A stretch of 64,000 nt of DNA. It comes from Liolophura sinensis. Lineage: Eukaryota; Mollusca; Polyplacophora; Chitonida; Chitonidae. Positions 6,012 through 60,683 of this stretch are shown piece by piece. Every line of letters begins with the position of its first letter. The first letter of the stretch is position 1. Below the pieces are notes generated by a model. The model was not told where the DNA came from. It ran no database searches and worked only from the letters and a program-made list of their open reading frames with translations. The position numbers and the translations under genes were made by a program. The DNA lies in the NCBI RefSeq assembly GCF_032854445.1, contig NC_088305.1:31213645-31277644 (forward strand). The letters are read 5' to 3'.

Positions 6012-6891
6012 CAGATAATACAGTAGGACATTTACAGTGCGAGACTTGATTGGTGCAAATCCAATCAACTTTTTCAGATAATACAGTAGGACATTTACAG
6101 TGCGAGAGTTGATCAGTGCAAATCCAATCAACTTTTTCAGATAATACAGTAGGACATTTACAGTGCGAGACTTGATCAATGCAAATCCAATCAACTTTTT
6201 CAGATAATACAGTAGGACATTTACAATGCGAGACTTGATCAGTGCAAATCCAATCAACTTTTTCAGATAATACAGTAGGACATTTACAGTGCGAGACTTG
6301 ATTGGTGCAAATCCAATCAACTTTTTCAGATAATACAGTAGGACATTTACAGTGCGAGACTTGATTGGTGCAAATCCAATCAACTTTTTCAGATAATACA
6401 GTAGGACATTTACAGTGCGAGACTTGATCAGTGCAAATCCAATCAACTTTTTTAGATAATACAGTAGGACATTTACAGTGCGAGACTTGATCAGTGCAAA
6501 TCCAATCAACTTTTTTAGATAATACAGTAGGACATTTACAGTGCGAGAGTTGATCAATGCAAATCCAATCAACTTTTTCAGATAATACAGTAGGACATTT
6601 ACAGTGCGAGAGTTGATCAGTGCAAATCCAATCAACTTTTTCAGATAATACAGTAGGACATTTACAGTGCGAGACTTGATCAGTGCAAATCCAATCAACT
6701 TTTTCAGATAATACAGTAGGACATTTACAGTGCGAGAGTTGATCGGTGCAAATCCAATCAACTTTTTCAGATAATACAGTAGGACATTTACAGTGCAAGA
6801 GTTGATCAGTGCAAATCCAATCAACTTTTTCAGATAATACAGTAGGACATTTACAGTGCGAGACTTGATCAGTGCAAATCCAATCAACTTC
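6012..6891. repeat. 63-bp minisatellite, 14 copies
   Basis: The unit CAGATAATACAGTAGGACAT... continues through GTGCGAGACTTGATCAGTGC to AATCCAATCAACTTTTT. It is repeated 14 times with only a few variable sites (GATCAG/GATTGG/GATCAA and GAGACTT/GAGAGTT). Because 63 is a multiple of three, two minus-strand frames stay open for over 300 codons (21-residue repeats). This is expected by chance from one stop-free unit and is not taken as a gene. Confidence 0.95.
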
Positions 6892-13439: not shown

Positions 13440-16400
13440 GTTTGAAGCTGTAACTTTTCCTGAGCCTTAGAACATTGCGGATTGTCTTTGATTTTAAACA
13501 GTTCAGCATGTTTTAGTGATACACTAGTTTTTGGATACATTTCTCGTGACGTATAGCACGATAATCAATTCTGAAAGTTCTGAAAGCAAAATCTCTTATA
13601 AAAATTAAAACGATTGGGGAAAACATCATAAATTCCAGTTGGTGTCATCGTAATGTTCTCGCCGTCCATTTAACATGCTCATTTATGTAGAGAAATAAAA
13701 CGTTTTCCTGCCTTTGCATTGTTTGCGTTGTCCGGATCAGTGATGTCAGTTAAATTGAAAGAGAGAGTTCTGCCCATTTACCATTTTAGAATGAAGGGAA
13801 TTGGTGTTAATGTCTCTTTCACAACGAATGTAGCATAAAAAATGCCCATAGTTTGCACTATATGCTCCTCGAGGTATTTGAATGTATAGACAGGGCACGT
13901 AAAAATGATATAAGCAATGCAAAAAAAAAAAAAATTGTTTGTATATGTACGGTATATGTATTAACTCCTCTAACTTTACCAGTGGTTTGTATAGGCATTA
14001 TGTTTAAAACAAAGTTTGTAAAGAACACCTACAGTTAACAATAAATTCAAACATTTCTGTGAAAACAGATGGCCCCGAAGATGTTCGTACATGCATGATA
14101 GACATTTAGGCACAACAGGAGACCAGTTCTGCAAACTTAATTCACTTCTAAATGTTAATAGTTGCAGTTATTAAAGCCGAGAACATACTAGAGTTTTTTC
14201 CACTTGTACCAACAAACTAAATCGCCGGCGAAATACGCTGATGATATTCGCAGCACACTTGCAGATACACTGGGCAAATTTTTTCTTTGAATGTGGTCAG
14301 TAGGCAGGGTGTTCAAAAAGGGCAAGTAGCAGGCTGCAGACAGCTGTCTACTGCTGTCCCTGTAGCCGTCTACTTTGAATATTCTTACTATTTAAATCAT
14401 TAGTAATTGTGTCATAATTACTTTCAATTCAGCTGCCTACTGTTGAACTCTGACCACCTTCTCCAATTCAAAGTGAAAACCCAGAATAGGTTATATCGTG
14501 GGACCTAGTAAACCATGTGATGCAAACAAAATGTCAGGTCAACACAAAGTAAAACTCATTTGTACTTTCCTTTATTACGTCACGATTATCGGTGTAGGCA
14601 TGATCGTAAAACATATATGAAGTACACACGCATGGCAACGTCACAGAAGAAAACGCCTGTAGGAGTGAAAAAACTGTCAAGTGTGAGTGCACATGTGCAT
14701 GTATCTATTGTGTAGGTAAAGGAATGAGTGTAGGAATATGCGATACAATACACCTATAGGCATGTATTTTAGCATTTAGTACATGTAAGTATAGATCAAA
14801 GTGGAAGCTAGACCTGATTCATGAGGCTTTGTGACTGTATTAGATTAAGTATTGGTTGAATCCATGTCAAGGAGTAATACTCTGCTATATTATACACGAG
14901 AGTAGGGAGTGGTTATTTTTCCAAATTTTTTTGACAGTTGTGAAACCTGGAAGAAGGGCTTGGAAAAAGATCAGAGGAGAATTTGGAGATGGAGTTTTCC
15001 TGTCAAGTGGTGAATTAAATAGAGAGAAACTTGGTCAGATTATCTTTGCAGATTCTGACAAAAGAAAGTTGTTGAATTCCATCACACATCCAGAAATTTA
15101 TAAATGTATGGCATGGGAAGTTTTGAAAGCATTTTTGTCAGGTGGGTGTAATTATTTGTTGTGTTATATTATAATTTGAATTGTATCAGGGTTCTCTTTG
15201 TGTGGCTTATGCATGTATCTACATGTACACCTACATCTACATGTACCCGAATTCCTCAACCTTTTCACATATAAAAGAGCAGCTTTCAGTGCAATTTATG
15301 CACATTTTTGATTTGATTTTGTGGACAAAACTGCATTGGTTGGGTTAGCCAATTTCAGCACTTTACAAAAAGCATAATTTTATCTTGATCGAACACCTTG
15401 GAAACGTGCGAAAAGGTTGAAGAAATACAGTATGTAACAGTGCAAATTCTGGCAATTTGGCAGAATAACTACATATAACTTGGTCATTGAGATACTGTGC
15501 ATTTCAAGTACATTTTAGTATGTCGTTTAAGATGATTTTCAGTGTAATGGGATAGAGAATTTATGGAGTACCCAACTTTCACTATTTGTGAGGCCTTGGT
15601 GACAGTGGTCAGTTGATAACAATCCTTGAATGTTTGTCTTGCACTAATATGATGTGTGTATGTCACATGTGGCATAGTAAGAGTCTAAGCTACAAACAAA
15701 TAAATAAATTACGTAGGGAAAGTTATTCAGCTACTTGCCAAAGGGTGGTGGATTACCCCAGACACCTGTTTCCTCCAGCCCAAAAAAGACTGTCATCGCA
15801 TATTCAAGTGAAAAACTCTTGAAGTACATATCCAGTATGGATGGCCATAAATAACAGTCAGAGACTCATTATACATGAAGAAATGAAGAAATAAATCAAT
15901 TAGAACATATTACAATTTTCTGTGTAATGTTGCCCACTATAAAAATGAACTTGATGAAGACAAGCAGTAACCTGAGGGTGATTGTTTTGTGCTAAAATGT
16001 CTTCCTTATATTCGTATTATTGTTGTAAACTACATGTACTGTAAAACCTTCCTGATTTTGTTCAAGGTAAGCACATACATGATAAGTGGAATTCGAGTGA
16101 AATGTGATTGGTTCTAAAGGCTTAATGCCCTGGTGTCTATAGTGTTATATTGAAGCAACGCTGTAAATACAACTTACGTATATGTCTGCATCTCCGTGGC
16201 TTAGTTGGTTAGCGCACTAGAGCGGCATGATGACCCAGGAGCCTCTCACCAATGCGGTGGCTGTGAGTTCAAGTCCAGCTCATGCTGGCTTCCTCTCCAG
16301 CCGTAAGTGGGAAGGTCTGCCCGCAACCTGCGGATGGTAGTGAGTTTCCCCTGGGCTGTGCCCAGTTTGCTGCCACCATAATGGTGGCCACCGTCGTATA

Positions 16401-19400
16401 AGTGAAATATTCTTGAGTACAGCATAAAACACCAATTAAATAAATAAATAAATACATGTATGCATCAGCCGTGTCAGTGATATCGCTCAATTTGATTGGC
16501 AGAGTTTTGTCCCTTCAACTGTAGGACTGAAAGGAGGGTTCCATTGTCAAACTTTCATAAACTGTACTGCCTGTTGTATATGTAGGTATATGAATGCAGA
16601 ATGAACAAAGCATGTAAGATGATGTCACAAAATATTAAGTTAAACACAAAGCATGCAAAGAAAAAGTACAATCAACAAAAACTTCAAGCATCTGATGGTG
16701 AAAATGGTGAATAGATATATTGTATATATGCTGGCATTCCGACATAAATGTAGAGACACTTGATGAAAATAAATGTTGAAAGTGAAATCATGATTGAGCC
16801 TTCAGCTAACAAACAAACAATAAACTGGTTAACTTTTTGATCCCTGAATGCAGGTCATCAGTTTGTGATTCTGGACTTGCCATTGCTGTTTGAGACAAGA
16901 CAGATGCTACCTTACATCTCCTATACAGTCGTGGTGGCCTGGTGAGTTGTTTGTGCAGCACTTGCAGACATTACATTCAGACGTACACTATATGTATATT
17001 TCCACTAAGTTTATCATCATCACCGTTTAAAATCATTGATAACTAATAGCACCTTGGACAGAAAATTCCCAGTCTTTCCTGGCCTCTGTCATTCAGTAAT
17101 GACCCCTGCCTCCCTCTCTCCCATGGCCTCTGCCTCCCTTCCACGGCCTTTTTCCACCATCCCATGACCGCTGTGTTCCTCCCATGTCCTATGCTACCCT
17201 CCCATGGTTGTCACCCTCTCATGGCCTCTGCCTCCTTCTCTTGACTGCTGTCTCCCTCACAAGGCCTCTTCCAGCCTTTCCTAGCATCTGCTTCCCAGTA
17301 ATGGGCCCAGTCTCCCTTTCATGCCCTATTCCTTCCTCCCATGTCCTGTGACAAGCCTCACATGGCCTTTACAACCCTGTCATGGTATCTGCCTCCCTCC
17401 CATGGCCTCTGCCTCTCCCCCTCCCTCCCGCCACTGTGTCAATAGCTGCCAAATTCTCATCATGGACTCCCTCCCATGTCCTTTGCCACCCTGTCATGGG
17501 TTTGCCTCTCTCATCTTGCCTGCCATGGTCTCAATTGTCAGCCAGTAATCTGACATCCTGGATGTATCTTTTCTTATTCTCACATGGCTCCTTACAAATC
17601 TGTTGTTGCCCTGTGCCATACTGTTGTTGTTGCCCTGTGCCACACTGCTGTTGCCCTGTGCCACACTTTTGTTGCCCTGTGTCACACTGCTGTTGTCCTG
17701 TGTCACACTGCTGTTGTCCTGTGCCACACTGCTGTTGTCCTGTGCCACACTGCTGTTGCCCTGCGCCGTACTGTTTTTGTTGCCCTGTGCCACATTGTTG
17801 TTGTCCTCTGCCATACTGTTGTTGCCCTGTGGTTGCTGTTGTTGCCCTATGTCATACTGTTGTTGCCCTGTGCCACATTGTTGTTGCCCTGTGCCACACT
17901 GCTGTTGTCCTGTGCCACACTGCTGTTGCCTTCTGCCAAACTGTTGCTGTTATTGCCCTGTGCCACATTGTTGCTGTTGTTGTCCTAGGTCATACTGTTG
18001 TTGCCCTGTGTCACACTCTTGTTGCCCTGTGTCACACCACTGTTGCCCCTGTGCCACACTCTTGTTGCCCTTAACCCAAGCCTGTTGGACCTTTGTGAAC
18101 TGTCCATAGCTGCTGTGTTGTGCATGTGGCTTTAACCTACCAATATTACTAATAGTACCTGTTATGCAGGGTTAGTGGAGGTACAATTGGTTGGTGATTT
18201 AGTTGCGTACAAGGTACTGTGCGTTTTACATGTATCGTTTCAAATTTTCTCTGATTTAATAGTGTGATAATTCTCACAAAGTGTAGTGAGACTTAGCCAA
18301 AATATTGCTGACAGTGGCTTGTAATCTGAAGACGCAAACAAACCCTTGACATTGTCTGTTGATTAAAACCAGGCTATATTGTAAGCACCATCTAAAACAG
18401 GCCTCATTCACAAGAAGAAAATCAGACTAAGATATTTTGTGAAATTGGCTCAAGATCTGAAGGAGATAAGCAGATAAATAAGCCAGTTTTGTGTAATCAC
18501 CATCAGAGATTTTGTCTGCTACAACCAGGCATGGCTGAAGTATTGTGTTTCAGGTGTGCCATATGTTCTGCTAGATGAATATTATGTGACAGAGTCCTAT
18601 TTATAAAAGTCATTGAAGATGTTCTGTGTGTGCCCTATATGGTAATCAATCTGTCACTTACAAATTACAGGATGCCTGGAAATAAATGTGATTTTAATCA
18701 ACTGACATTGTGTTCATCACACCTTGTCTGTGGAAAAAAGAAGACAAAAAAATAAACTGGTGTGAACAGAAGTGCTAACCAGTTGTAGCATTTATCAGAG
18801 AGAAAATTGTGACCTGTAACTTTCTCCAAAAAGTAGATAATACAAATGGTTTTTTGTATCTTCCTTAGGGAGGAAAAACTACTGCAATGCTTCATCATGA
18901 TCATCCAGTACTTTACCATGGTGGTGCAGTCTAGAGCTAGCAGTCAGGATGCCTATTCATTACTTATTCCAGTCATTCATTAACCTAAGATTGTCTTGTC
19001 CCCCAATAATTACCTCCCTTGATTGATCACTCAGTATTAATTGGTTGAGTTAGCTTCAGTCACCCCTCTCATTTATCTCCACCTTTTTGCCGTTTTATTT
19101 CATTACATTTGTCAACCAATTCTGCCTTTTCCATGTACAACTCAAGCAAGCGTCCTTTCATGTTGTTCTTTATTGGATTAGTTTTCCGCAGGTCTTGAAG
19201 ATTTACAGGCATCTCTTATATCTTTGACTGAACGTTTCGATATGGGTTTTCATGAGATGCAAATCAAAGTGTGGTATAAAGCAGTGATGCAGTTACATAA
19301 CATGTTTTTACTGTGTTTCCTGTCGCTGCTCAGGTTGTGGATTCTAATGCCAGTTTGTCCAAGGTTTTGATACAAATATATTTTTATTTGATTGTTCTAT

Positions 19401-28245: not shown

Positions 28246-28483
28246 GGCCTCCGTGGCTCAGTTGCTTAGCGTGCTAGCGCTGCGTATGATGACCCTGGAG
28301 CCTCGCGTCAATGCGGTCGCTGTGAGCCCAGCTCATGCTGGCTTCCTCTCCAGCCAGGTCTGCGAGCAACCTGTGGATAGTCATGTGTTCCCCCCGGGCT
28401 CTCCCCGGTTTCCTCCCACCACCGTCGTATAAGTGAAATATTCTTGTGTACAGCGTAAAACACCAATCAAATAAATAAATAAA
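28246..28483 (+). mobile_element. SINE family 1, near full-length copy with target duplication
   Basis: Head GCCTCCGTGGCTCAGTTGCT, B-box region slightly deleted, tail CCGTCGTATAAGTGAAATAT and (AAAT)n. TACTACGCCC flanks it on both sides (28230-28239 and 28484-28493), a 10-bp target-site duplication. Confidence 0.88.
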
Positions 28484-29339
28484 TACTACGCCCCTCAATC
28501 AAATAAATATATTGTATATATTTTGCTTAATTTGCTCCAGAAGTCAGCTTTAGGAATACATAGTGTCACATAATCAAGAGAACAGTGAAAAATACACACA
28601 GTTCCACAGGATCTAGAGTGATATCAGACATTCCATTCACAGAACAACGAACCGTAGAGCTTAACATACTTAGACAAAACAGTGACGTCGACAACTACTG
28701 ATGGCTTCTCCCTGTAACAACACTGTCAGCTGTCAATTTTCCTGTTTGTTTCACCCTTGGGAGCATAATTTCAACTGACATCTACGAGTGCTTCTTTGTA
28801 ATGTTGACATTCTCTTTAAATTAAGTTTGTCTTCCTTCTTTTATTGATGTTTTATTTGTGGTAAGACATAAAGGGACGCACCTCTAGTGGTATATCCAAG
28901 GTTTCTATTTGAAAACAAAAGGTGTTTTTTCGAGTTTCCGTCAACGTTTCACCAAGGTGACAATTTTTTTAACTTCATCAGTGAATTCAACAGAAGGTTA
29001 TAAAGCCTACTAATCGGAAATGAAGACTGACTTACAACTCACAGTAAGTTATTCCCAGGGGTGAGGCTACTTGTTTATATTCTGTTATGATGAAGTACAA
29101 ATGCGTGTGCCAGATGAAGAACGCTGATGTGAGTGTCATATTTGTTCTACGCTCGAAGAAAAAGGACAGTCAGTATTTTTCTTTTTGGTAAATTAATTTC
29201 CTATTAACAGGAATGAGAGTTTTCAGCTGATATGTTGGGAAATAAGGATACCTGGGACCCAAATGGCCAAACTAATAGTTTTACTAATGGAGGTCAGCTA
29301 TATAGTCTATTTCTTTTAGTGAGTCGCCTACACTCAGCT

Positions 29340-29558
29340 CCCCGGGCTAGCGCGCTAGCGCAGCGTAATGACCCAGGAGCCTCTCACCAATGCGGTGGCT
29401 GTGAGTTCAAGTCCAGCTCATGCTGGCTTCCTCTCCGGCCGTACGTGGGGAGGTCTTCAGCAACCACTACCCGGTTTCCTCCCACCATAATGCTGGCCGC
29501 CGTCGTATAATTGAAACATCCTTGAGTACGACGTAAAACATCAAATAAATAAATAAAT
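29340..29558 (+). mobile_element. SINE family 1, 5'-shortened copy with target duplication
   Basis: It starts within the tRNA head (CCCCGGGCTAGCGCGCTAGC) and has an internal deletion after CAGCAACC. The tail is CCGTCGTATAATTGAAACAT and (AAAT)n. ACTCAGCT flanks it on both sides (29332-29339 and 29559-29566). Confidence 0.85.
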
Positions 29559-30215
29559 ACTCAGCTGTCTGTAAAATCAGTCATATTCGCTACCAAAATT
29601 GTCTATAGTCAGTGTCTCGTAACCACACAAACAAAATGAAATTAAAAAACTTTTTTAATTCTTAAAGTTAAAGAATGTAGGCGACTGGCTAGAAGAAATA
29701 CACTATAGCGGAAGAAATTTCAGCTAATTTTTCATGGACAAGATTCTTCAAACTGAAGCTTTCAGTGGACCAAGAGCTGGATTCGAACATGTAGCCTAAC
29801 TGATAATAACCGGGTTTACTGCGCGCTGTAGTGTAAAAGTCGCCGTCTCAAGGAAGGAAACAGGAGCAAGCCTATACTAGGATGGATCCGAAATATTATA
29901 CATGTCCTCTTCTTGCAAACATGATAAAGGTGTTAAAAAGCTAAGGATGGGAAGGTGTTAATTTGTGAAAGTTTCTTACAAAAAAAATACCCCAAAAATT
30001 ACACTTTTTACCGTTCTTTCAGTCATTCTTATTCTAAAGTGATCAACAGAGATCGCCTTTTTTATCAGCGTGCTCAACGTTATTGTTCATTTCGTCCAAA
30101 GAATCGATTGTCTAACTGATTTTATCTCTAGCTTTGTAATGTGTAAAAATTTTGAATTTATGTTTCACAAGAGCGATAAAGTTATCGCCACCTGTATTAA
30201 CCAGCCCCTAGCCGA

Positions 30216-30445
30216 CGTATTCCACTTCCGGTTTTCTCAGGTTTAATTTCCGGTCTGTGTGTCGGCAGAAGCAGCTGCCTTAGTTTATTATTGATTATTA
30301 TAAAATATTTGCGTGGCCAATCGATCAGCGCTTTATGATATCTCTCAACACAAAAGTCTTTATCCGAACGAGAAACGACAGGCACATGAACGTTTATTAC
30401 ATCGTAATGTCGATTTATATTTGCCCATCAATAATTTAAACACTT
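30216..30445 (-). repeat. Inverted copy of the conserved non-coding core
   Basis: Read on the minus strand, this aligns along its length with 39290-39545 and 52675-52930. Shared blocks include TGTCGTTTCTC, CTGATCGA, CACGCAAAT, CTTCTGC and two CCGGAA sites 22 bp apart (plus-strand TTCCGG at 30226 and 30248). Identity is roughly 70-75% by eye. It is outside the tandem blocks. Confidence 0.7.
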
Positions 30446-38967: not shown

Positions 38968-39140
38968 ATCTTCCTCTCCGGCCGTACGTGGGAAGATCTT
39001 CCAGCAACCTGTTGATGGTCATGGGTTTCCCCCGGGCTCTGCCCGGTTTCCTCCCACCATAATGCTGGCCGCCGTCGTAAATGAAATATTCTTGAGTACG
39101 GCGTAAAACACCAATCAAATATAAAACAAATATATAAATA
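38968..39140 (+). mobile_element. SINE family 1, 5'-truncated copy, private to duplication copy 1
   Basis: It starts at TTCCTCTCCGGCCGTACGTG and runs to GAGTACGGCGTAAAACACCA and an A/T-rich tail. The equivalent place in copy 2 (about 52640) lacks it, so it inserted after the duplication. Confidence 0.85.
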
Positions 39141-39289: not shown

Positions 39290-39600
39290 CTGTTCTTTGA
39301 AATTATTTATGGAAAGTGGAACTCGTTATGATGATGTAATAAATTATCATGTATCTGTCGTTTCTCTTCCTGATTAAGGCTTTTATGTTTACTGATGATC
39401 ATCATCATTTTATGATCACTGATCGACGAGCCACGCAAATGTTATACTATAACCAATAACAAAGTTAGATAGCCGCTTCTGCTGAACACCAGGTCGGAAA
39501 TGGAACCTGCTTTTACCGGAAATGGAATTAGTGGACTTAAAATTGGTGTGAAATGATGGACACATTGATAGTAAATATACATTTATTTTCCTTTTATTAC
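39290..39600 (+). promoter_or_regulatory. Conserved non-coding core, copy 1 (candidate regulatory element)
   Basis: About 94% identical to 52675-52985 by eye (about 18 differences in 300), although the surrounding duplication is far more diverged. It holds CCAAT (39453-39457) and a paired GGAA site (TCGGAA at 39494, CCGGAA at 39516). No shared open frame. Function is inferred only from conservation. Confidence 0.5.
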
Positions 39601-40758
39601 ACTTTAACGTACCTTCAAACTATTTATGGGAGTTAGACGAGATGTCTAAGGAGCGGGCTTAATGTGCCCGGAAGTCACCAGAAGATGTGTTCTTATTGAC
39701 CTGTGACACTGGACACTGGACACTGGCAATGTGCACTTTCTTGTCATAGTTAAATGGCAAAGTTCTAGCCATTAATTATGATGTTTTTGTCTCTGTTATA
39801 GTTGACTGGAAGGTGAACTAACAGCTCTTCAGGTCTGAATGAAGCGCCACCTATTGTGTTATCACGAATAAAACACGATAAAAGGAGGAAAGCCAGGCAG
39901 ATCTGATGATAGTATCGAGATTACAAAGAAGCTCTGGTGAATGTCAGTTGACATTAAGCAAGACTCAAGTGAATGAGGAGTATTGGCAGGTGACAGCTTT
40001 GATATACCACATTAATATCTTAAATCAATGGTTTGTCGTTTTCTTATTTTGTACTTTATCTATATGGTGACAGGCATTGTTACTCCTTATTCTCTGCCAG
40101 AGTTTTCGTTCTTATCGCCCTATGATCACGTGACCAAAGTGTATATATGCACGCCTAATTGATTCGATAATTTTAAATCGTATTTGATGTTTTTCTTTGA
40201 TCAGTTGTTGATCATAAGGTAGCTACGCCCTGACATCAGCTGGGGATCACTGTCTTGCCGTCCCATAAAGTTGCGCCTCACGTGCTTTTAACACAGTCTG
40301 TTTAATTTGTTTGATCCGCATGTTTGATGTTCATGATATGTACACGACCGCAGTATGGAGAGTTATTACATTTTAACTGTTCAAGGGAATGCTAAGTAGC
40401 ATAGAAGCAACGTACACATTCCCTTGCACCATGGTTTACAGAGAATCAAGTAAAAACATAATAGTGATGATAATAGAAATGTATTAGACTTTACTGCTGA
40501 TTACTCCGTACTCCAAATGCTGTGTTGTTGTCACATTTAACGAATACCAGACACATTGCTGGCACAATTACAACATGGAGCTCGTGAACACAAGCCTAAA
40601 TGTGGCTTAATTGTTCATGGACAACAAGAATATACTGTGACAAAATGGCACTTTTTTTGTTCTAAATCTTCACCGTATTGGAATCTGCCATCGATTTTGC
40701 GCTGAATGATTTGGAATGCAAATTCAAATTTATGCACATCTTTAAAATATGAAACGAT

Positions 40759-41046: not shown

Positions 41047-42058
41047 TGATAAATCAATGAGTCAGAATCAAGCAAAATATGTCACATGAAATATGCCGGA
41101 CTTCAGGTGAAATACAGCAATTAAGGACACCCTGTTGAGGAGAAAACTTTAGACACCAATATGAGTCACACAGGGACTCAACTTTACGCACAACGTTGGA
41201 AGTTGTTAGACACAGATGTAGAGAATTCAAATATTTATTCTGGAAACCGGTCATCAGCGATCAAAGACACGCAATTTGCATAGAGATGGATTTGGTGTAT
41301 GCATTGATAAACGTTTTAGACATTTAAAGTATACGATACTGTAAAAGACGTACGGCATAAAGAGTAAATCCAGAGGAGGGACAACAGTGTGACAGTTGGC
41401 AAATGATCACTTGTAACCGGTCAAATCTGGCCTCTTGATAATTTTACCTCAGTTAGGGTTTTATTCTATGGTTCATGTATATGTCTAAATAGAACCAAAT
41501 TACACACCTCTCTAGCACCATAGCTTAAGCAGAAGTAGCTAAAAAAAATGCAAAGATGTTAATTGCGAATTATTAGACGTAACTGGTCTAGAATTCCTCA
41601 AAATGCTGTGTTGACACGACAGGAACAACTTTTGTACAGCCTTGCGTTCCTCCACAGACACAAGTACAAACTGACAGCATGGACTCACCAATACGACAGC
41701 CAAATTTTTTATTAAACATTTACATCTTTTATTATAGAGCACTACATAACTGACTTCTTTGTCTTCAAGAGTTCGTCTCAGATTTATTGGCATTAACTTG
41801 GAATGACCCGCTCAAGCTTATTGCAGCTTTTGAAACTTAGACGACTCCGCCCACACAGTTAAATAATTCATTTTAGCCGCTGAAAGTAGTTTGTTCTATC
41901 ATAAAAACTAAGTTTATGTCGCTTGACGATTTTTCAGTGTTATTGGGAACGTTACGTGCATTCTTGCATTAGTAAAGCCACTCATGAAAAAGCTGTTTTG
42001 TTCTGATACCTGCCAATTTTCAGAAAAACATAGGTAATGGAAGTAATTAATCAAAACC

Positions 42059-42538
42059 TGTTAATGTCATGCATGTTCGTGTGTTTGCACAGATACACTG
42101 TTAATGTCATGCATGTTCGTGTGTTTGCCCAGATACACCGTTAATGTCATGCATGTTCGTGTGTCTGCACAGATACACTGTTAATGTCATGAATGTACGT
42201 GTGTTTGCCCAGATACACTGTTAATGCCATGAATGTATGTGTGTTTGCCCAGATACACTGTTAATGTCATGCTTGTTCGTATGATTGCACATATACACTG
42301 TTAATGTCATGCATGTACGTGTGTTTGCCCTGATACACTGTTAATGCCATGAATGTACGTGTGTTTGCCCAGATACACTGTTAACGTCATGCATGGTCGT
42401 GTTTTTGACCAGATACACTGTTAACGTCATGCATGTTCGTGTGTTTGCACATATACACTGTTAACGTCATGCATGTATGTGTGTTTGCCCTGATACACCG
42501 TTAATGCCATGAATGTATGTGTGTTTGCCCTGATCTCT
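42059..42538. repeat. 40-bp minisatellite, 12 copies, private to duplication copy 1
   Basis: Unit TGTTAATGTCATGCATGTTC then GTGTGTTTGCACAGATACAC. A SINE fragment follows it. The homologous place in copy 2 (near 57000-57110) is unexpanded. Confidence 0.92.
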
Positions 42539-42651: not shown

Positions 42652-43375
42652 TCAATGTGTGAAAATAACCCTTTACGAGTGTGAGGGCTTGAAGTATTGT
42701 TCTATCACAATTCCTTATCACAAAATAACACCTCTGAAAAAAGGGCCAACTCATCCCAATCTAAAATGCTTGAAAAAAGTGATGATCTTATAAATCAAAT
42801 TTACCCTCACATCATGTCGTGAGTTGAGGCCAGCAGATGAAAGAGTTGTCGTTTTCGGCGCTCTTTTCGGATGCTGTCTTTCTGCACTTGGGCACCTTCT
42901 GGTTAACTAAGAGAGAGTTTCCATAACGCAGTACTTCTTCCGCCTCCGGCAGGTAATCGATATGCAGTTGTAAAACAAAGTAGAGTGAATTATACCTGTA
43001 TCATGGGATCCTTAACTTTGATTTTGACAAGAGGCCCTCCTTGATATGGAGATATTTCAACCTGTCTACAGAGAATTATAAATATCTCATCAAGTGCATT
43101 AACCAAGTGAACTTACTTTCTAGATCCAACGAATGTAATATTGGGCCCATTAAGTTTTTCTAACGTGTGTGCAGCTAATGGACTAGATGAGGAAAATTGG
43201 GCCTTTACATTGCTTTTGGTGAATTTCCGGTATCAAGATTGCCTTAAGGATAAAAGTTTTGTTTTCCGGTGTTTATATGATGTTTTATTGTCTGATTTGG
43301 TCTTAAAATATGACAATCATGGGTCCCTTTCGAACACGCTGATTACTAACGGCTTTTGTGCACTATCAGGTGATG

Positions 43376-43534: not shown

Positions 43535-45061
43535 ATATATTCAGAAACATTTCTGATAACTGATAACCCAGGATTGTTCATGAGCTTATTCGTCTTATTA
43601 CATCCACTTCATGACCAGTAAACACGGAAACAATTAATGATGCAAATCTGTGAATATACATACACCAGTACCAGCAGATACAGTCTTCGAAGCTTTCATC
43701 TACATATGTAAATATCACGGAGACAATTGTTTCCCAGCTACAAGCCTACGACGGAGAGCTAGTGGGCTAGTGTGTACTCGATGTAAGAAGCCTGGCTTAA
43801 GAAAACATGTTGATACTTGAGACTGACGATTATCCACCACGCAGAGAAGAAATGCCTTCTCGAATTGTCGGCGCTGAAAAGGCCAGACGGATTTTTCATA
43901 TCGTTTTTGGCAGCGGCAATCTACTCCGAATTACCCGGCATGTTCTACAAGCAGAACTGATTTCCTCCGGGCACGCCGATTCCCCTCTTCACGGACTAAC
44001 TGTGAACACTTAGTGCTAACGTACGTCTCTTCTGGTGTATCAACAGACGATGTGGTGAGTTTTAAGCGGTCTGTGTCACTACAAACGGCAATCTGAGCTC
44101 TTGTGAAAGCAGATAGACCTGATTCCATTTTCATTTCCCTTGAAGGACGCTCGTAAAAGACAACACAAGAAGCAGTTCCATAAAACCACTTGCGTTACCA
44201 ATCCTAAGTCGACATAATTATTCAACTTTCGGAATTCCCAGGTACTTTTTCCGGTCTGTGCCTGGACAGAAACATTTTTTTGTATAGTCTTTATTTTGTA
44301 ATCTTTGGGAGCACGATAAACCATGACTTATACTGTGACCCATTTAGTGAATACAACAATTTGACATATAAATAACTGTACGTGTGTATATTTGTACAAT
44401 GTAATCAGACTAGCGAATTACATGTGCAAGAGATAGTGCTTTTGGTGGGAGCGTGCAGTGCCAAATAGGTTACATATCAACAGTTCAAAATGGACGATAT
44501 AATATAGACATGTGCGTGAATAAATAGGAACGACAGATATGTAAGAATAATATTTTGGAAAGTTTCCTAAAATTACACAGCTAAATATGCAAATGGGATT
44601 ACAGATGTTTTTGTCTCTTGGAGTAAAGGTTGAGACCGATGATATAAATATACAATGCTTAATTAAATCTCCGGCTCTCATTAATAAAGCAACCCACATG
44701 TTGCATAATTATTTCATTCGATATTGCCGGAAATGTGTTGTTCCCAAAAAGTAACGTAACTGGCGTAATAACACCAGTACAGCCCGACACGGTAACACCA
44801 TCCATTAGTTTTACCCTCTGTGCATCATACAGATGACATTTTCACAGGTAATGTTCCGCATTTTCATACTTGTGCCCACAATCACATTTTGTAGAATCAG
44901 GCAGGAAGTTGTCAAATAGATCGCCATTGAGATTACTACGGCCATTAAAATGTTTGTCAATCTAGATTCTGAGTAGTACTATGGAGGTGGTTTGTCGACT
45001 GGAACAATAAATTGAGCTTAGATTTAAAATGGGCTGGATCACTGAGTTGTTTCACATGGAG

Positions 45062-52674: not shown

Positions 52675-52985
52675 TCCCTAAATTATTTATGGAAAGTGGA
52701 ACTCGTTATGATCATATAATAAATTATCATGTATCTGTCGTTTCTCTTCCTGATTAAGGCTTTTATGTTGACTGATGATGATCATCATTTTATGATCACT
52801 GATCGACGAGCCAGGCAAATATTATACTATAACCAATAACAAAGTTAGACAGCCGCTTCTGCTGAACACCAGGCCGGAAATGGAACCTGCTTTCACCGGA
52901 AATGGAATTAGTGGACATAAAACTGGTGTATAATGATGGACAAATTGCTAGTAAATATACTTTTATTTTCCTTTTATTACACTTT
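52675..52985 (+). promoter_or_regulatory. Conserved non-coding core, copy 2 (candidate regulatory element)
   Basis: Counterpart of 39290-39600. CCAAT at 52833-52837; CCGGAA at 52874 and again at 52896, 22 bp apart as in the other two copies. No preserved reading frame. Confidence 0.5.
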
Positions 52986-53776
52986 AACGTCCGTTTAAAC
53001 TAATTATGGAAGTGAGACGAGACAACGTCTGAGGAACGGGAATAATGTGCCCGGAAGTCACCAGAAGATGTGTTCTTATGGACTTCTCAGGTCTTCTTTA
53101 CACGATAGATTATTGACTGGTATACAGTCATCTATAATGTACCTGACAAAGGCAATGTGCACTTTGTTGTCATGTTGAGATTCCAACGTTCTAGCCATTA
53201 ATTATTATGTCTTTGTCTGTGATGAAGGTGATATTAGAACAGGAGCGTCCCCTATCGTGTTAATACGAATAAAACACGATGAAAGAGGGAAAGCCCTGCA
53301 GATCTGATGAAAGTATCGACGTTGTAAAGAAACTGTTGTGAATGCCATTTGACATTATACAAGACTCAAGCGAATGGGGAGTATTGACAGTTGACATCAT
53401 TGATATACCACAATGATAACTTAAATCAATAGTCTATCGTTTTCTTTTGATCATTTATACTGTTTTCAGATTTTCAGCCGGCATTTTTGTTTTATCGTAT
53501 TTACCGTCCTATGATCATGTGAGCAAAGTGTATACAGACACACCTTATTGGTTCGGTAATTATAAATTGTCTTTGATGGTTTCCTTTGATCGGTCGTTGA
53601 TCATGACTACTGTTACATGTATTACTGGCCAGCCACCCTTACAGATCATTATCTTGTCGCCCATCATATATGATACATTTCGCGGAACTTGTTTACTTTG
53701 TTGTACCTGAACGGTTGATGTTCAGCATATATACACAACTACAGCCTAGCTAGTTTATTTATTTAACTTGCGAATC

Positions 53777-54660: not shown

Positions 54661-55235
54661 TTGAATCTATGCGTGGAAACAGACATTCGTATACCAGCCG
54701 TCAACAAGTATGGACGTTCCTGTGTGAAATGTGAGGAATCTGTGCGTGGAAACAGACATTAATATACCAGCCGTCAACAAGTATGGACGTTCCTGTGTGA
54801 AATGTGAGGAATCTGTGCGTGGAACAGACATTCGTATACCAGCCGTCAACCAGTATGGATGGTTCCTGTGTGAAATGTGAGGAATATGTGCGTGGAAACA
54901 GACATTCGTATACCCGCCGTCAACCAGTATGGACGATCCTGTGTGAAATGTGAGGAATATGAGCGTGGAAACAGACATTCGTATACCAGCCGTCAACCAG
55001 TATGGACGTTCCTGTGTGAAATGTTAGGAATATGTTCGTGGAAACAGACATTCGTACACCAGCCGTCAACCAGTATGGACGATCCTGTGTGAAATGTGAG
55101 GAATATGAGCGTGGAAACAGACATTCGTATACCAGCAGTCAACCAGTATGGACGTTCCTGTGTGAAATGTTAGGAATATGTTCGTGGAAACAGACATTCG
55201 TATACCCGCCGTCAACCAATAAGGACGTTCCAGGT
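54661..55235. repeat. 73-bp minisatellite, about eight copies
   Basis: Unit GCGTGGAAACAGACATTCGT then ATACCAGCCGTCAACCAGTA, TGGACGTTCCTGTGTGAAAT and GTGAGGAATATG. The last unit runs into GGTCAATAACCGCAAGGCCA. A solitary unit with the same right flank lies at 31036. Confidence 0.92.
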
Positions 55236-57779
55236 CAATAACCGCAAGGCCAATTCCCCAAAATGACGCATAAAACAAATGATCGAAGTGAAATCAGTAT
55301 TCAAATCGTGCATTACACTAGAATATCAGTTGTTGGTAACAAAATAAAGTTCATAAAACTCAACCCGATGAATGTATAGACCCTAGCCCCGGGTTAAGCG
55401 GAGTTAAACACAGTCATGAAGCAGAGTGCCAGATATTCCATATGTACTTCAGTTTTACTCATTGGAAAACGTAAGAAACTTGGAGTGAAGGCGTTTGATG
55501 GAATAACCATGACATTCCAGCTTTTGCAGTAATAACTTGTGATGTTGGTTAAAATCATCACATAACACAAGGGATCTAACAAATGCTACAAGGCGCTATG
55601 TGCACATGTCATATGCAGGACCTTCGGTATACTGCTATTTAAATAAGGATAATTTACAATGTCAAAATTGAAAATACCTCTCTAGTCGTAAAGTCTGCAA
55701 GAGAGGAAACCGCTTTGGTCTGTGTGCAAATATAGGTCCAGATAAGATGTACCATCTGGGAAGTCTGTGGTTTCCTTTAAATCCAGTGAAGGTGGGTTTA
55801 AAGCCAGCAAACATCAACATACCGTCTAGTGAATAAGAAAGATCGGGTCTGGCGAGAATTACTCCTTACTGGTTTCTGCATATGGTTGTGTTCATGAGAA
55901 CAGTTATAGGTCGGCCGAAGGGGGCACAATCGGAATGCCTGTACACTGTTGATATATAAACATCCCATAAATGTAACCCTTGTATGTGGGAGAACTGAAC
56001 AAGGGTTTGTTGCCTCAGTTTGTTGACGTCAATATAGCGCTGACCGGTTTCATTAAACGCCGAAACAATTAGTGATGAAATTCTATTTATTAAATCCGTG
56101 CGAGGAATCCCAAATAGATATGTCCTGATACGGCATGTATATTAGAGCGTCTAGTTCTTAAATGGGGCGTTCTTAAAAAATCAGGATTTTTAAATATCCA
56201 CATGCAGTTGACGTCTGATTTTTTGCCATTGCACAACAATACTTGTTCCAAAATGACAGTGTTTCTTGTAGTGCTTTGGTTAAGAGAGTTGATTTAAGTT
56301 TGTTGGCACAGCTTTTCGACATTGCAATAAGTGAAATACATGAATTAAATATATCTGTTCAGACACAGCTTTAGAGAGTGGAAGCACAAAAACAGGACAC
56401 CAAGTTATATCACAAACAGTATGGACTCAACTTTAGACTTAATGTTGGACGTTGTTAGACACAGCTGTACAGCACTGAAACATTCCTTTTTAGAAACAGC
56501 TCTTCAGTGTTAAAGGACACACAAGTAGAGATGGATTTCCTGTATGCAATGATACACGTTTAGACATTTGAAGAACACAATAAGACACTTTTGGTCACAA
56601 ATTTATAGTTAGCAGGAAAAAAACTTGTGTACACCTTTAATATAGTCCTGCACAGACACAGGTGTAAAATGATGGCAACGACTCGCCATAACTATGCTTA
56701 ACAGTCGCTATTTTTTGTCGAGTTTGTCTTCATGGTTACCTCTCAGATTCAATGGTGCTAACTTGGAATGACACCCTGAAGCTCATTGCTGAGGTGAAAC
56801 TTAGATAAGTATGTAAATACATTTGAATAATTCATTTGAACTGCTGGGAATAGCATATGTTAAAACAAAATGCAGAAATTATGTTACATTCCAACGATTA
56901 ATTTTACGCTTGTTGACAGTTTTATTGTTTCTGATAACGTAGCATATTGCGTGCAAACTTGCATTAGTAAAGTCAGCCCTAAAAAGAAGTGTATTCAAAG
57001 TTTTGACAATCTTCGAGAAAACATCGACAATGTAATTAATTCATTGAAGCCGTCTCGATCCAGGACATCAAATTTCCCTATTCATAGGGCGATTCACCAT
57101 AAATGCGTTGATATGACCCCTTACAAGTTTGAGGTCTTGAGAGGCATTCTTCAGTTACAATTCATTACAAAAAATGACACCTCTGAAAAAGGCGAACCAT
57201 TTCAGTTTGAAACACTTGACAAAACAAGTAAAACAAATTCACCCTCAGATCTTGTCGTGTGATAAGGCTAGCAAATAACAGTGTTATCATTTTCGCTTCT
57301 CTTTTCTGCTGCAGGCGTTCAGCATTTGAACATCTTTCGGTTAATTAACGAGAGAGTCCAAGAGGCATGGCTTCTTCCGCCGCCGGCAGGCAAGCAGTAT
57401 GCATCTGTGGACGTCAATGTCAGTCTGAAAACACTGTAGAGTGAATTATACCTGTATCTTGGGATCCTTTGATCTTGACAAGACGCTCTCCGTGTTATGG
57501 AGATATGTCAACCTGCCTATAGCAAACTATATAGGCCTCTCATCTCTCGGATACATTAACCATGTGATCACACTTTCTAGAACCAGTTTATGTTGTATCT
57601 GATCCTTGCAAATAGCTAATGGACAAGATGAGAGAAATTAAGCCTTACTTTGCTTTTGGTGAATTTCCTGTGTCAAGATTGGCCTCAAGATACAAGTTTT
57701 CCTGTGTTTAAATGATGTTTTATAATTTGGCCCTAAATATGACAATGATGTGTCCCCTCTGGACAAGCTGACAACAGGT

Positions 57780-59030: not shown

Positions 59031-60683
59031 CAGTCATGGAAAAAATTATTAGACCACCCTTGCTTTCTCCCATTTCTTGTTCATTTTAAAACCTTGCACA
59101 ACTGAAGGAACATTTGTTTGGGCAAAGAAAGTGATGAAAACAGAAATAGTTCATAAGGGTTTTATTTAAGAGGTGATATCTATCAGTTCTCTATGACTTT
59201 CTTGACAATGACCAAAATCACTTCATACATCTGTAGATGTGGCAACTGTATTCTCAAAAACATTTTGGCATTTCATTTTTTCTCCTGTCTCCTAGTCACG
59301 TAGTCACATGACTCTCAGTCTCATACGGGAGTTAGTACTTGATTGCATGCCCATTGTTTTTGATGACTGCAGCCATGCACCTTGGCATGCTCTCCACCAG
59401 TTTGTTACATTGCCCTGCGGTCACAGCAGCCCATTCCTGTTGCAAAAATTCGAACAAATTTGCTTTGTTTTTGGGCTTGTGGTTCTCCATTTTGAACTTG
59501 ATAATATTCCACAGGTTTTCAATTGGATTCAGATCAGGTGACTGAGCAGGCCAATTCATGGTTCGAATGTTCCGGTTCTCTATCCAGGTTTTAACTGACC
59601 TTGCCGTGTGGCAAGGGGCATTGTCTTGTTGGAAAATCCAGTCATTCGAGCCAGGAAAGAGTGTAACAGCTGATGGAAGAAGAGTGTTTTCAAGAGTAGC
59701 TCTGTATGTGACTTGGTTCATTCTCCCTTCACACAACTGCATCTGTCCTGTTCCACCCATACTGAAACAACCCCAGATCATCACTGATCCACCCCCATGC
59801 TTTACAGTAGGAGCAAGGCAGTCTGGTTTGTAGGCTTCCCCAGGCTTCCTCCTAACCAGTAAGTTGGCTGGAGTAGGCATCAACTCAAAATTGGATTCAT
59901 CACTGAAGAGAACTTTAGCCCAATCATCAACAGTCCAATTCTTGTGATCCCTCGCAAAACGCAAGCGGGCCTTCCGCTGCCTCTCGTTGATGGAGGGCTT
60001 CTTCCGCGCCCTGTGCGACTTTAGACCAGCTTCAAGAAGTCGGTTTCGAACTGTTCTTGCTGAACAAGTCACATTTGTTGACAATGCCCACTCATTTCTA
60101 AGGTCTCTGGAGGTCTGACGACGATTCTTGATACAGGACCGGATGAGTGCTCGGTCATCTCGTGGGGTAGAAAGACGTTTCCTGCCTCGACCAGCTAGCA
60201 GTTTTGTAGTACCATGTTCGGCTTGCTTTTTCTTGGTGTAATGAACTGCTGTCTTAGAGATCTTCAGTTTTTTGGCCACTCGTCGCTCGCTCAATCCAGT
60301 ATCCAGCTGTGCCAAGATGGCTGCCTTTCTGGCTCCACATAATTCTTTCGTTTTAGGCATTATGGGAGCTGACAACTACCGAGTTGTGCTGCGTCTTAAT
60401 ATATAAACAAGAGACCCCTATTTATGTAAGCCTACATGTAAACAGGAAACCACTCTTTATGTAAGTCTGCATGTAAATGGAAAGCATGAAATTGCCTCGC
60501 ATACACCCTAGGAATACAACTGACCTTAAAGCATATCAAATACGACAAAGTATTATGGAATCAGCTGGATTTTTGTCGTATTCATTGTAATCTTGGGTTA
60601 ATACACCTTTAGGGTTGCCAGGCATTAAAATGAACAAGAAACCAAAGAAAATATGAGTGGTCTAATAATTTTTTCCATGACTG
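59031..60683 (-). mobile_element. Complete Tc1-like DNA transposon
   Basis: The 27-bp outer terminal inverted repeats (59031-59057 and 60657-60683, starting CAGTCATGGAAAAAATTATT) are perfect. A second 16-bp perfect block (59073-59088 and 60626-60641) is at the same distance from each end. TA flanks both sides (59029-59030, 60684-60685), the target duplication of this superfamily. One full-length transposase frame lies inside. The size of 1653 bp is normal for Tc1. Everything needed for movement appears present, so insertion is recent. Confidence 0.96.
59332..60375 (-). CDS. Tc1-family transposase, intact, 347 aa
   Basis: The enzyme cuts out and reinserts the surrounding element at TA sites in the nucleus. 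The N-terminal half holds paired helix-turn-helix domains (about residues 10-55 and 75-120) with the linker motif GRGRKR (62-67). The catalytic core is DD34E: D159 in FSDESNF, D251 in QQDNAPCH and E286 in PDLNPIENLW, with exactly 34 residues between the last two. The glycine-rich WGCFSMGGTG box (201-210) is present. The length matches the family (about 340 aa). The frame starts at 60375, but Met6 (MPKTKEL) resembles the usual Tc1 start and may be the real one. No stop or frameshift is seen. The plus-strand open frames over it are shadows. Confidence 0.96.
   Translation of the reverse strand: MSAPIMPKTKELCGARKAAILAQLDTGLSERRVAKKLKISKTAVHYTKKKQAEHGTTKLLAGRGRKRLSTPRDDRALIRSCIKNRRQTSRDLRNEWALSTNVTCSARTVRNRLLEAGLKSHRARKKPSINERQRKARLRFARDHKNWTVDDWAKVLFSDESNFELMPTPANLLVRRKPGEAYKPDCLAPTVKHGGGSVMIWGCFSMGGTGQMQLCEGRMNQVTYRATLENTLLPSAVTLFPGSNDWIFQQDNAPCHTARSVKTWIENRNIRTMNWPAQSPDLNPIENLWNIIKFKMENHKPKNKANLFEFLQQEWAAVTAGQCNKLVESMPRCMAAVIKNNGHAIKY

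Follow-up and report, generated by a model that had tools for sequence, protein, structure and literature searches.

Why are two same-direction GGAA sites held exactly 22 bp apart in copies of a noncoding element that have otherwise diverged widely? The question comes from a window of 64,000 nucleotides on chromosome C11 of the chiton Liolophura sinensis (NC_088305.1, 31213645-31277644; 609-Mb assembly), for which the initial annotation described an inverted third copy of a core element, at about 70-75% identity to two cores further along. The reverse complement of 30219-30440 aligned with 39297-39528 (copy I) at 71.4% over 234 columns, and that of 30219-30438 with 52679-52908 (copy II) at 72.0% over 232 columns (blastn), with E values that ranged from about 1e-24 to about 1e-28 between searches. 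The described identity is borne out, and the resemblance of the inverted copy, copy O hereafter, to copies I and II is real and far beyond chance.

The copy at 30.2 kb is real, yet the description of it as the third copy was incomplete, since six intact and two decayed copies were located. For this purpose 80 kb of neighbouring DNA was added to the window, to which window-equivalent coordinates are given, and the whole 144 kb was searched with an nhmmer profile of six copies. Inside the window lie copy O (30216-30445, minus strand; aligned core 30219-30440), copy I (39297-39532, plus strand) and copy II (52679-52912, plus strand), all three found by both blastn and nhmmer. Past the window end nhmmer placed copy III (window-equivalent 64460-64560, plus strand), copy IV (68822-68922, plus strand) and copy VI (88000-87901, minus strand). 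Please note that the six intact copies themselves built the profile, copy O included, so that their E values of 3.6e-27 or better (3.6e-27 for copy O) should be read accordingly. The two decayed copies, at 44219-44274 on the minus strand (E 1e-5) and at window-equivalent 76977-77036 on the plus strand (E 2e-5), are called the 44-kb and 77-kb relics. The six copies form three lineages, i.e., {O}, {I, II} and {III, IV, VI}, with core identities of 62-73% between lineages. Copy O is the most isolated; copies I and II are sisters (95% in the core), and high conservation between them extends over about 300 bp (39,310-39,610).

The paired sites are of ETS type. On the minus strand of copy O, CCGGAAATTA starts at 30253 and CCGGAAGTGG at 30231 (pair 30226-30253), which appear on the forward strand as TTCCGG at 30226 and 30248. 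Copy I has TCGGAA at 39494 and CCGGAA at 39516 (39494-39521, plus strand), and copy II has CCGGAA at both 52874 and 52896 (52874-52901, plus strand), with CCGGAAATGGAA repeated at its two sites (12/12). Coordinates and spacing in these three copies are just as first described. The copies at 64.5, 68.9 and 87.9 kb were unseen when the pair was picked out and all three hold it at 22 bp, so that they serve as an out-of-sample confirmation of both the sites and their spacing, with no variable spacing among them; they belong to one lineage, and just three deep lineages exist overall. YCGGAA and CCGGAA thus stand in the same direction exactly 22 bp apart in 6/6 intact copies. The 44-kb relic has CCGGAA at 44254 and a degraded CCGAAA at 44232 (minus strand), still at 22 bp, so that the spacing is constant in 7/7 copies in which both site positions are retained, this relic included; in the 77-kb relic a GGAA pair was sought and not found. 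The spacing is 1 bp off two helical turns (multiples of 10.5 bp). A genome-wide search with a strict pattern (two extended sites, the second preceded by 9-11 free bases), which skips copies O and I by design, gave 4 matches, all in the array, and the same pattern read backwards gave 0. CCGGAA/TTCCGG sites are also frequent at 30-93 kb, with 37 against about 17 expected from base composition; by manual count, 21 of these belong to the pairs of the core and of a second island, S6b, described below.

Are the sites specially conserved? The pair had been called the most constrained feature of the core, a claim that depends on the copies considered. Among O, I and II, CTGTCGTTTCTC is the longest run without change, 12 bp located upstream of the paired sites (39355-39366 in copy I, plus strand), which exceeds either 7-bp GGAA block; GCTTCTGC, CTGATCGA and AAATTATT, 8 bp each, are invariant in these copies as well. 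With three copies, therefore, the claim does not stand. With six it does, in the sense that the unchanged hexamers are solely those overlapping the two sites, while one-change hexamers exist elsewhere; the pair ranks top here only because the CTGTCGTTTCTC block was not seen at the aligned place in III, IV and VI (alignment by eye). When changes are inferred on the three-lineage tree of the six copies, the 12 columns of the two hexamers account for 1 change in all, compared with 0.75 per column elsewhere. Equal conservation is reached by 28 of 4465 non-overlapping hexamer pairs, a count that includes the site pair and its shifted versions, and by 1 of the 79 pairs at spacing 22, namely the GGAA pair. 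Copies III and VI agree at 27/28 positions of the 28-bp pair interval, versus 75.3% in the remaining aligned stretch, and III and IV have one substitution located between the two sites. For the sisters I and II, the interval (26/28) does not stand out from the 105-bp core around it (95.3%), and conservation is similar over about 300 bp. The alignments were anchored on the paired-site stretch, which favours conservation there. Across three deep lineages, the two sites show excess conservation.

The contrast originally drawn with a CCAAT box, as kept in two copies and lost in copy O, is not supported. CCAAT is confined to copies I and II, the 95% identical sisters, and the others have TCAAT or TGAAT; a gain in the ancestor of I and II is no less likely than two losses, and the argument from CCAAT fails. 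A reverse CCAAT (ATTGG) stands at 39542-39546 in copy I (plus strand), 26 bp past the start of the second site, and at about 26-30 bp past it in I, III, IV, VI and both relics; it is absent from O and II (by eye). CpG enrichment is inconsistent, being high in 2/6 copies and under the array median in another 2/6, and a CpG-island promoter was rejected on this disagreement.

We tentatively prefer the reading, quite possibly correct in our judgement, that the core is a noncoding and probably promoter-proximal cis-regulatory element, which would have been copied together with a roughly 10-kb noncoding unit via local tandem and inverted duplication. The two same-direction CCGGAA sites would lie on one face of the helix and be occupied side by side by an ETS factor, for which the GABP alpha/beta tetramer is the likeliest candidate, and the occupied pair would drive or enhance transcription of the unit. 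Protein binding, the identity of the factor, the activity of the element and a regulated target are what we infer from the core, which carries the sequence grammar of a GABP-tetramer site. The closest parallel that we found is the human TERT promoter. In a study of that promoter (PMC9481613), the GABP tetramer binds promoters with hotspot mutations and promoters in which a duplication sets two GGAA motifs at a distance of 22 bp, and insertion or deletion of bases lowers the activity, which is regained near three turns. The chiton element shares with it the same-direction GGAA pair at 22 bp, i.e., about two turns; in contrast, the TERT change is somatic and human and affects a known gene, whereas the chiton element is germline, is repeatedly duplicated and lies where no gene is known. 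A GABP-alpha domain is encoded in the chiton genome, where PF11620 matches twice at C1:69.35 Mb, with scores of 45.4 and 37.7 bits against a cut-off of 26 (the second match read through one TAG), and 14 control genomes gave zero PF11620 matches. From the TERT parallel and this domain we take the core to be promoter- or enhancer-like, with cooperative binding of ETS factors, probably GABP.

Promoters of the GABP/NRF-2 type have tandem in-phase ACCGGAAGTG-like sites with CCAAT-type boxes nearby. The chiton core likewise has tandem, in-phase, ACCGGAAGTG-like sites and CCAAT-type boxes near them, but the locus has no housekeeping gene found and its CpG enrichment is, as said, inconsistent. Tandem gene clusters such as the clustered protocadherins share promoter elements, and the recurrence of one short element across duplicated units is similar here; the chiton units differ in that no coding exons were found in them. 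A limited literature search found no paper describing a conserved ETS promoter in a duplicated noncoding cluster of a mollusc and, judged by title, none on the locus itself. Provided that binding to the pair is cooperative, the array would be a natural replicate series of six copies, up to about 38% diverged yet with both sites and their distance retained, in which the two-turn ETS (GABP) rule, derived from somatic changes of human TERT, could be tested in germline evolution outside vertebrates.

Plain common descent is a serious rival to this reading, and one that we consider somewhat unlikely. It holds that the copies are functionless decaying duplicates in which, by chance, no indel fell within 28 bp, and that the best-preserved stretch was then chosen for attention. 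The copies lie within larger noncoding units that are duplicated in tandem and inverted, mostly 66-84% alike, with one recent unit pair at 96-98%; the array spans 30-88 kb of the window coordinates on one chromosome and continues beyond the window end. Its outer part is a mirror image, with inverted pairs at 31.4/101.5, 33.4/96.3 and 35.4/92.9 kb (about 70-74%), i.e., from 31.4 to 101.5 kb (window-equivalent) the array is a roughly symmetric, old, large palindrome with tandem copies inside. Common ancestry of this sort would often leave a spacing over 28 bp free of indels. Indels are indeed few (O vs III and O vs IV each have one 3-bp gap in 98 columns), the independent lineages number three only, and two copies have visibly decayed. 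Several further conserved islands exist in each unit besides the core, many of them likewise 70-80% identical. One of these, S4b, is found in unit I at 40125-40211 (87 bp, plus strand) with TCACGTGA and one CTTTGAT box, and in unit II at 53514-53600 (plus strand) with TCATGTGA and two such boxes. The partners of the unit I island are 53514-53600, 65152-65238 and 69514-69600, with 80-82% identity between I or II and III; TCACGTGA recurs in III and IV, and both of these have two boxes.

Four observations speak against plain descent. The sole change-free hexamers of the six copies overlap the sites, with one-change hexamers occurring elsewhere, and the sites were foretold from three copies and are intact in three unseen ones. 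When the stretch of 20.0-31.5 kb, which surrounds copy O, was compared with units I, II, III and VI, it aligned at the core, at a 106-bp stretch 1.4 kb off, and at repeats only. The fourth comes from island S6b, which also has a GGAA pair. In unit I (43085-43280, plus strand) TTCCGG is located at 43225 and 43264, a spacing of 39 bp, with the sites on the strand opposite to that of the core; in unit II (57600-57730, plus strand) TTCCTG is located at 57665 and 57699, a spacing of 34 bp. In the six located units the S6b spacing is 39, 34, 40, 40, 40 and 40 bp, which indicates that GGAA-pair spacing can drift in this array and that the core pair has not done so.

A less likely rival, rather improbable in our view, is a generic ETS-type promoter or enhancer that depends on the sites but for which the 22-bp spacing is irrelevant. 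Its variants include independent binding, another ETS factor, and a composite of ETS/IRF type that includes the upstream GAGAAACGACAG block, which we take to resemble such a motif. The 12-bp CTGTCGTTTCTC run, the longest invariant one in O, I and II, is what it would expect, as is the tolerance of the S6b pairs for spacings of 34-40 bp; in III, IV and VI this block was not seen, however, and the spacing of the core pair is constant in all seven copies with both site positions, even where one site is degraded.

Genome-wide spacing of ETS pairs speaks to both sides. Same-direction CCGGAART pairs were found at 78 places with spacings of 14-25 bp and at 84 with spacings of 26-44 bp, and these 162 listed pairs were reduced to 120 after removal of the five array copies and after repeat families, tandem duplicates and overlapping triples had been collapsed by eye. 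Spacings of 18-22 bp (5 bins) account for 36 of the 120 pairs, compared with 26 for 14-17 and 23-27 bp together (9 bins). On a 10.5-bp phase, 70 of the 120 are in phase where 45% are expected (P 0.016 against a uniform-spacing null); periods of 11-12 bp give a marginally closer fit (R 0.20-0.21 vs 0.19), which suggests that the phase signal is loose and much of it simply the peak at 18-21 bp. Outside the array there is no enrichment at exactly 22 bp, with 4 pairs versus 5-11 at each spacing of 18-21, and this absence of a preference favours the generic element. The pattern read backwards as a control gave 89 matches at 14-25 bp and 833 at 26-44 bp, compared with 78 and 84 for the pattern itself. 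We take these control matches to be repeats; since the controls outnumber the pattern, a clean background is lacking for the pair-spacing comparison. The genome thus appears to favour two-turn ETS pairs, with a peak slightly under 22 bp, and the preference is weak. For 22 bp as a spacing of ETS pairs, the part of the initial idea that survives is the excess near two turns (18-22 bp), which argues against an irrelevant spacing, and the part that does not is any enrichment at exactly 22. Weak as it is, the preference makes the spacing rule directly checkable across molluscs.

Returning to the preferred reading of a GABP-type paired site, a bolder extension can be drawn from the unit layout. In units I-IV and VI, the core and S6b are inward-facing GGAA-pair islands about 2-5 kb apart. 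The array might then consist of noncoding transcription units bounded by the core (22 bp) and S6b (34-40 bp) and driven by GABP-type tetramers, an extension that we regard as quite doubtful. If it were true, the array could be, for example, a source of long noncoding RNAs or of small-RNA precursors, and the two-turn ETS rule of TERT would be an ancient grammar common to molluscs and mammals.

It is very unlikely that the core lies within a transcribed exon, protein-coding or of a structured RNA, with the GGAA repeat being incidental. A short frame around the sites does give similar peptides in II and O (38 aa, 58% identical), but by eye the frame has an in-frame stop in I, III, IV and VI, and the gaps between O and I/II are 1, 4 and 7 bp long, i.e., not multiples of three. 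Coding potential was low throughout: among similar pairs of at least 80 bp and at most 90% identity with starts at 30.0-78.6 kb (except those that begin in the minisatellite at 65.6-66.1 kb or in the repeat at 38.5-39.1 kb), z never rose above 2.7 in any of the six frames. The top score of 2.7 belongs to a core pair, O/III, as the exon would predict; that frame holds a stop, however, and the other pairs score at most 2.5. Most of the best frames hold stops, and the stop-free ones have at most 51 codons and z of at most 2.1. A stretch common to 95.8-96.2, 33.5-33.8 and 58.4-58.7 kb also scored low (z 1.1-1.4). Similar peptides arise from numerous frames of both strands, which is what DNA similarity by itself would produce, and a coding exon was rejected. 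As to structured RNA or microRNA hairpins, likewise rejected, five islands gave only weak consensus folds, whichever strand was folded (alifold energies from -1.6 to -15.3 kcal/mol, without shuffle control), and an Rfam search of the window and the next 30 kb found nothing in the window and one weak tRNA match downstream. When 20 ORFs were searched against Pfam, two were above the cut-off, an exon of a dephospho-CoA kinase gene (14844-15179, plus strand; CoaE, E 7e-17) and a Tc1/mariner-type transposase ORF of 347 aa (59332-60375, minus strand; HTH_Tnp_Tc3_2 and DDE_3); the transposase is the sole array ORF above the cut-off, and one other array ORF was sub-threshold (E 0.11). The ORF, Pfam and coding scans of the array found no gene starting at the element and no target gene.

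A low-copy transposable element or its remnant, which would account for multiple diverged copies in both orientations, is extremely unlikely and as a dispersed element unsupported, because the copies are embedded in larger collinear and mirror-image duplications and genome searches with core copies I, O and III and with S6, another part of the unit, found the family at C11:31.24-31.31 Mb only, bar two 50-60-bp S6 matches on other contigs, in a search that was non-exhaustive, as the copy O query did not list copies I and II, and that could have missed diverged copies elsewhere.

Several smaller observations were made along the way. Minisatellite arrays occupy 6012-6890, 42058-42534, 54663-55231 and 78683-83908 (window-equivalent), the last being more than 5 kb long with many repeat offsets at multiples of 48 bp. 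A dispersed repeat, about 70-90% alike, is present at 16192-16455, 28249-28486, 29345-29559 and 38970-39135 and is also frequent up- and downstream of the window. At about 16 places in the genome (by eye; e.g., C1:5644118 and C7:42772042) we noticed a composite near CCGGAAGTGACGTCAGCAAACCGGAAGT, made of an ETS site, a CRE-like TGACGTCA and another ETS site at a spacing of 19-21 bp, which is a dispersed repeat or else a promoter module that recurs. In the genome eight PF14830 (hemocyanin) matches stand in a row, all above the curated cut-off; the best PDB matches of one hemocyanin unit are hemocyanins, KLH1 among them, and the type is presumably molluscan.
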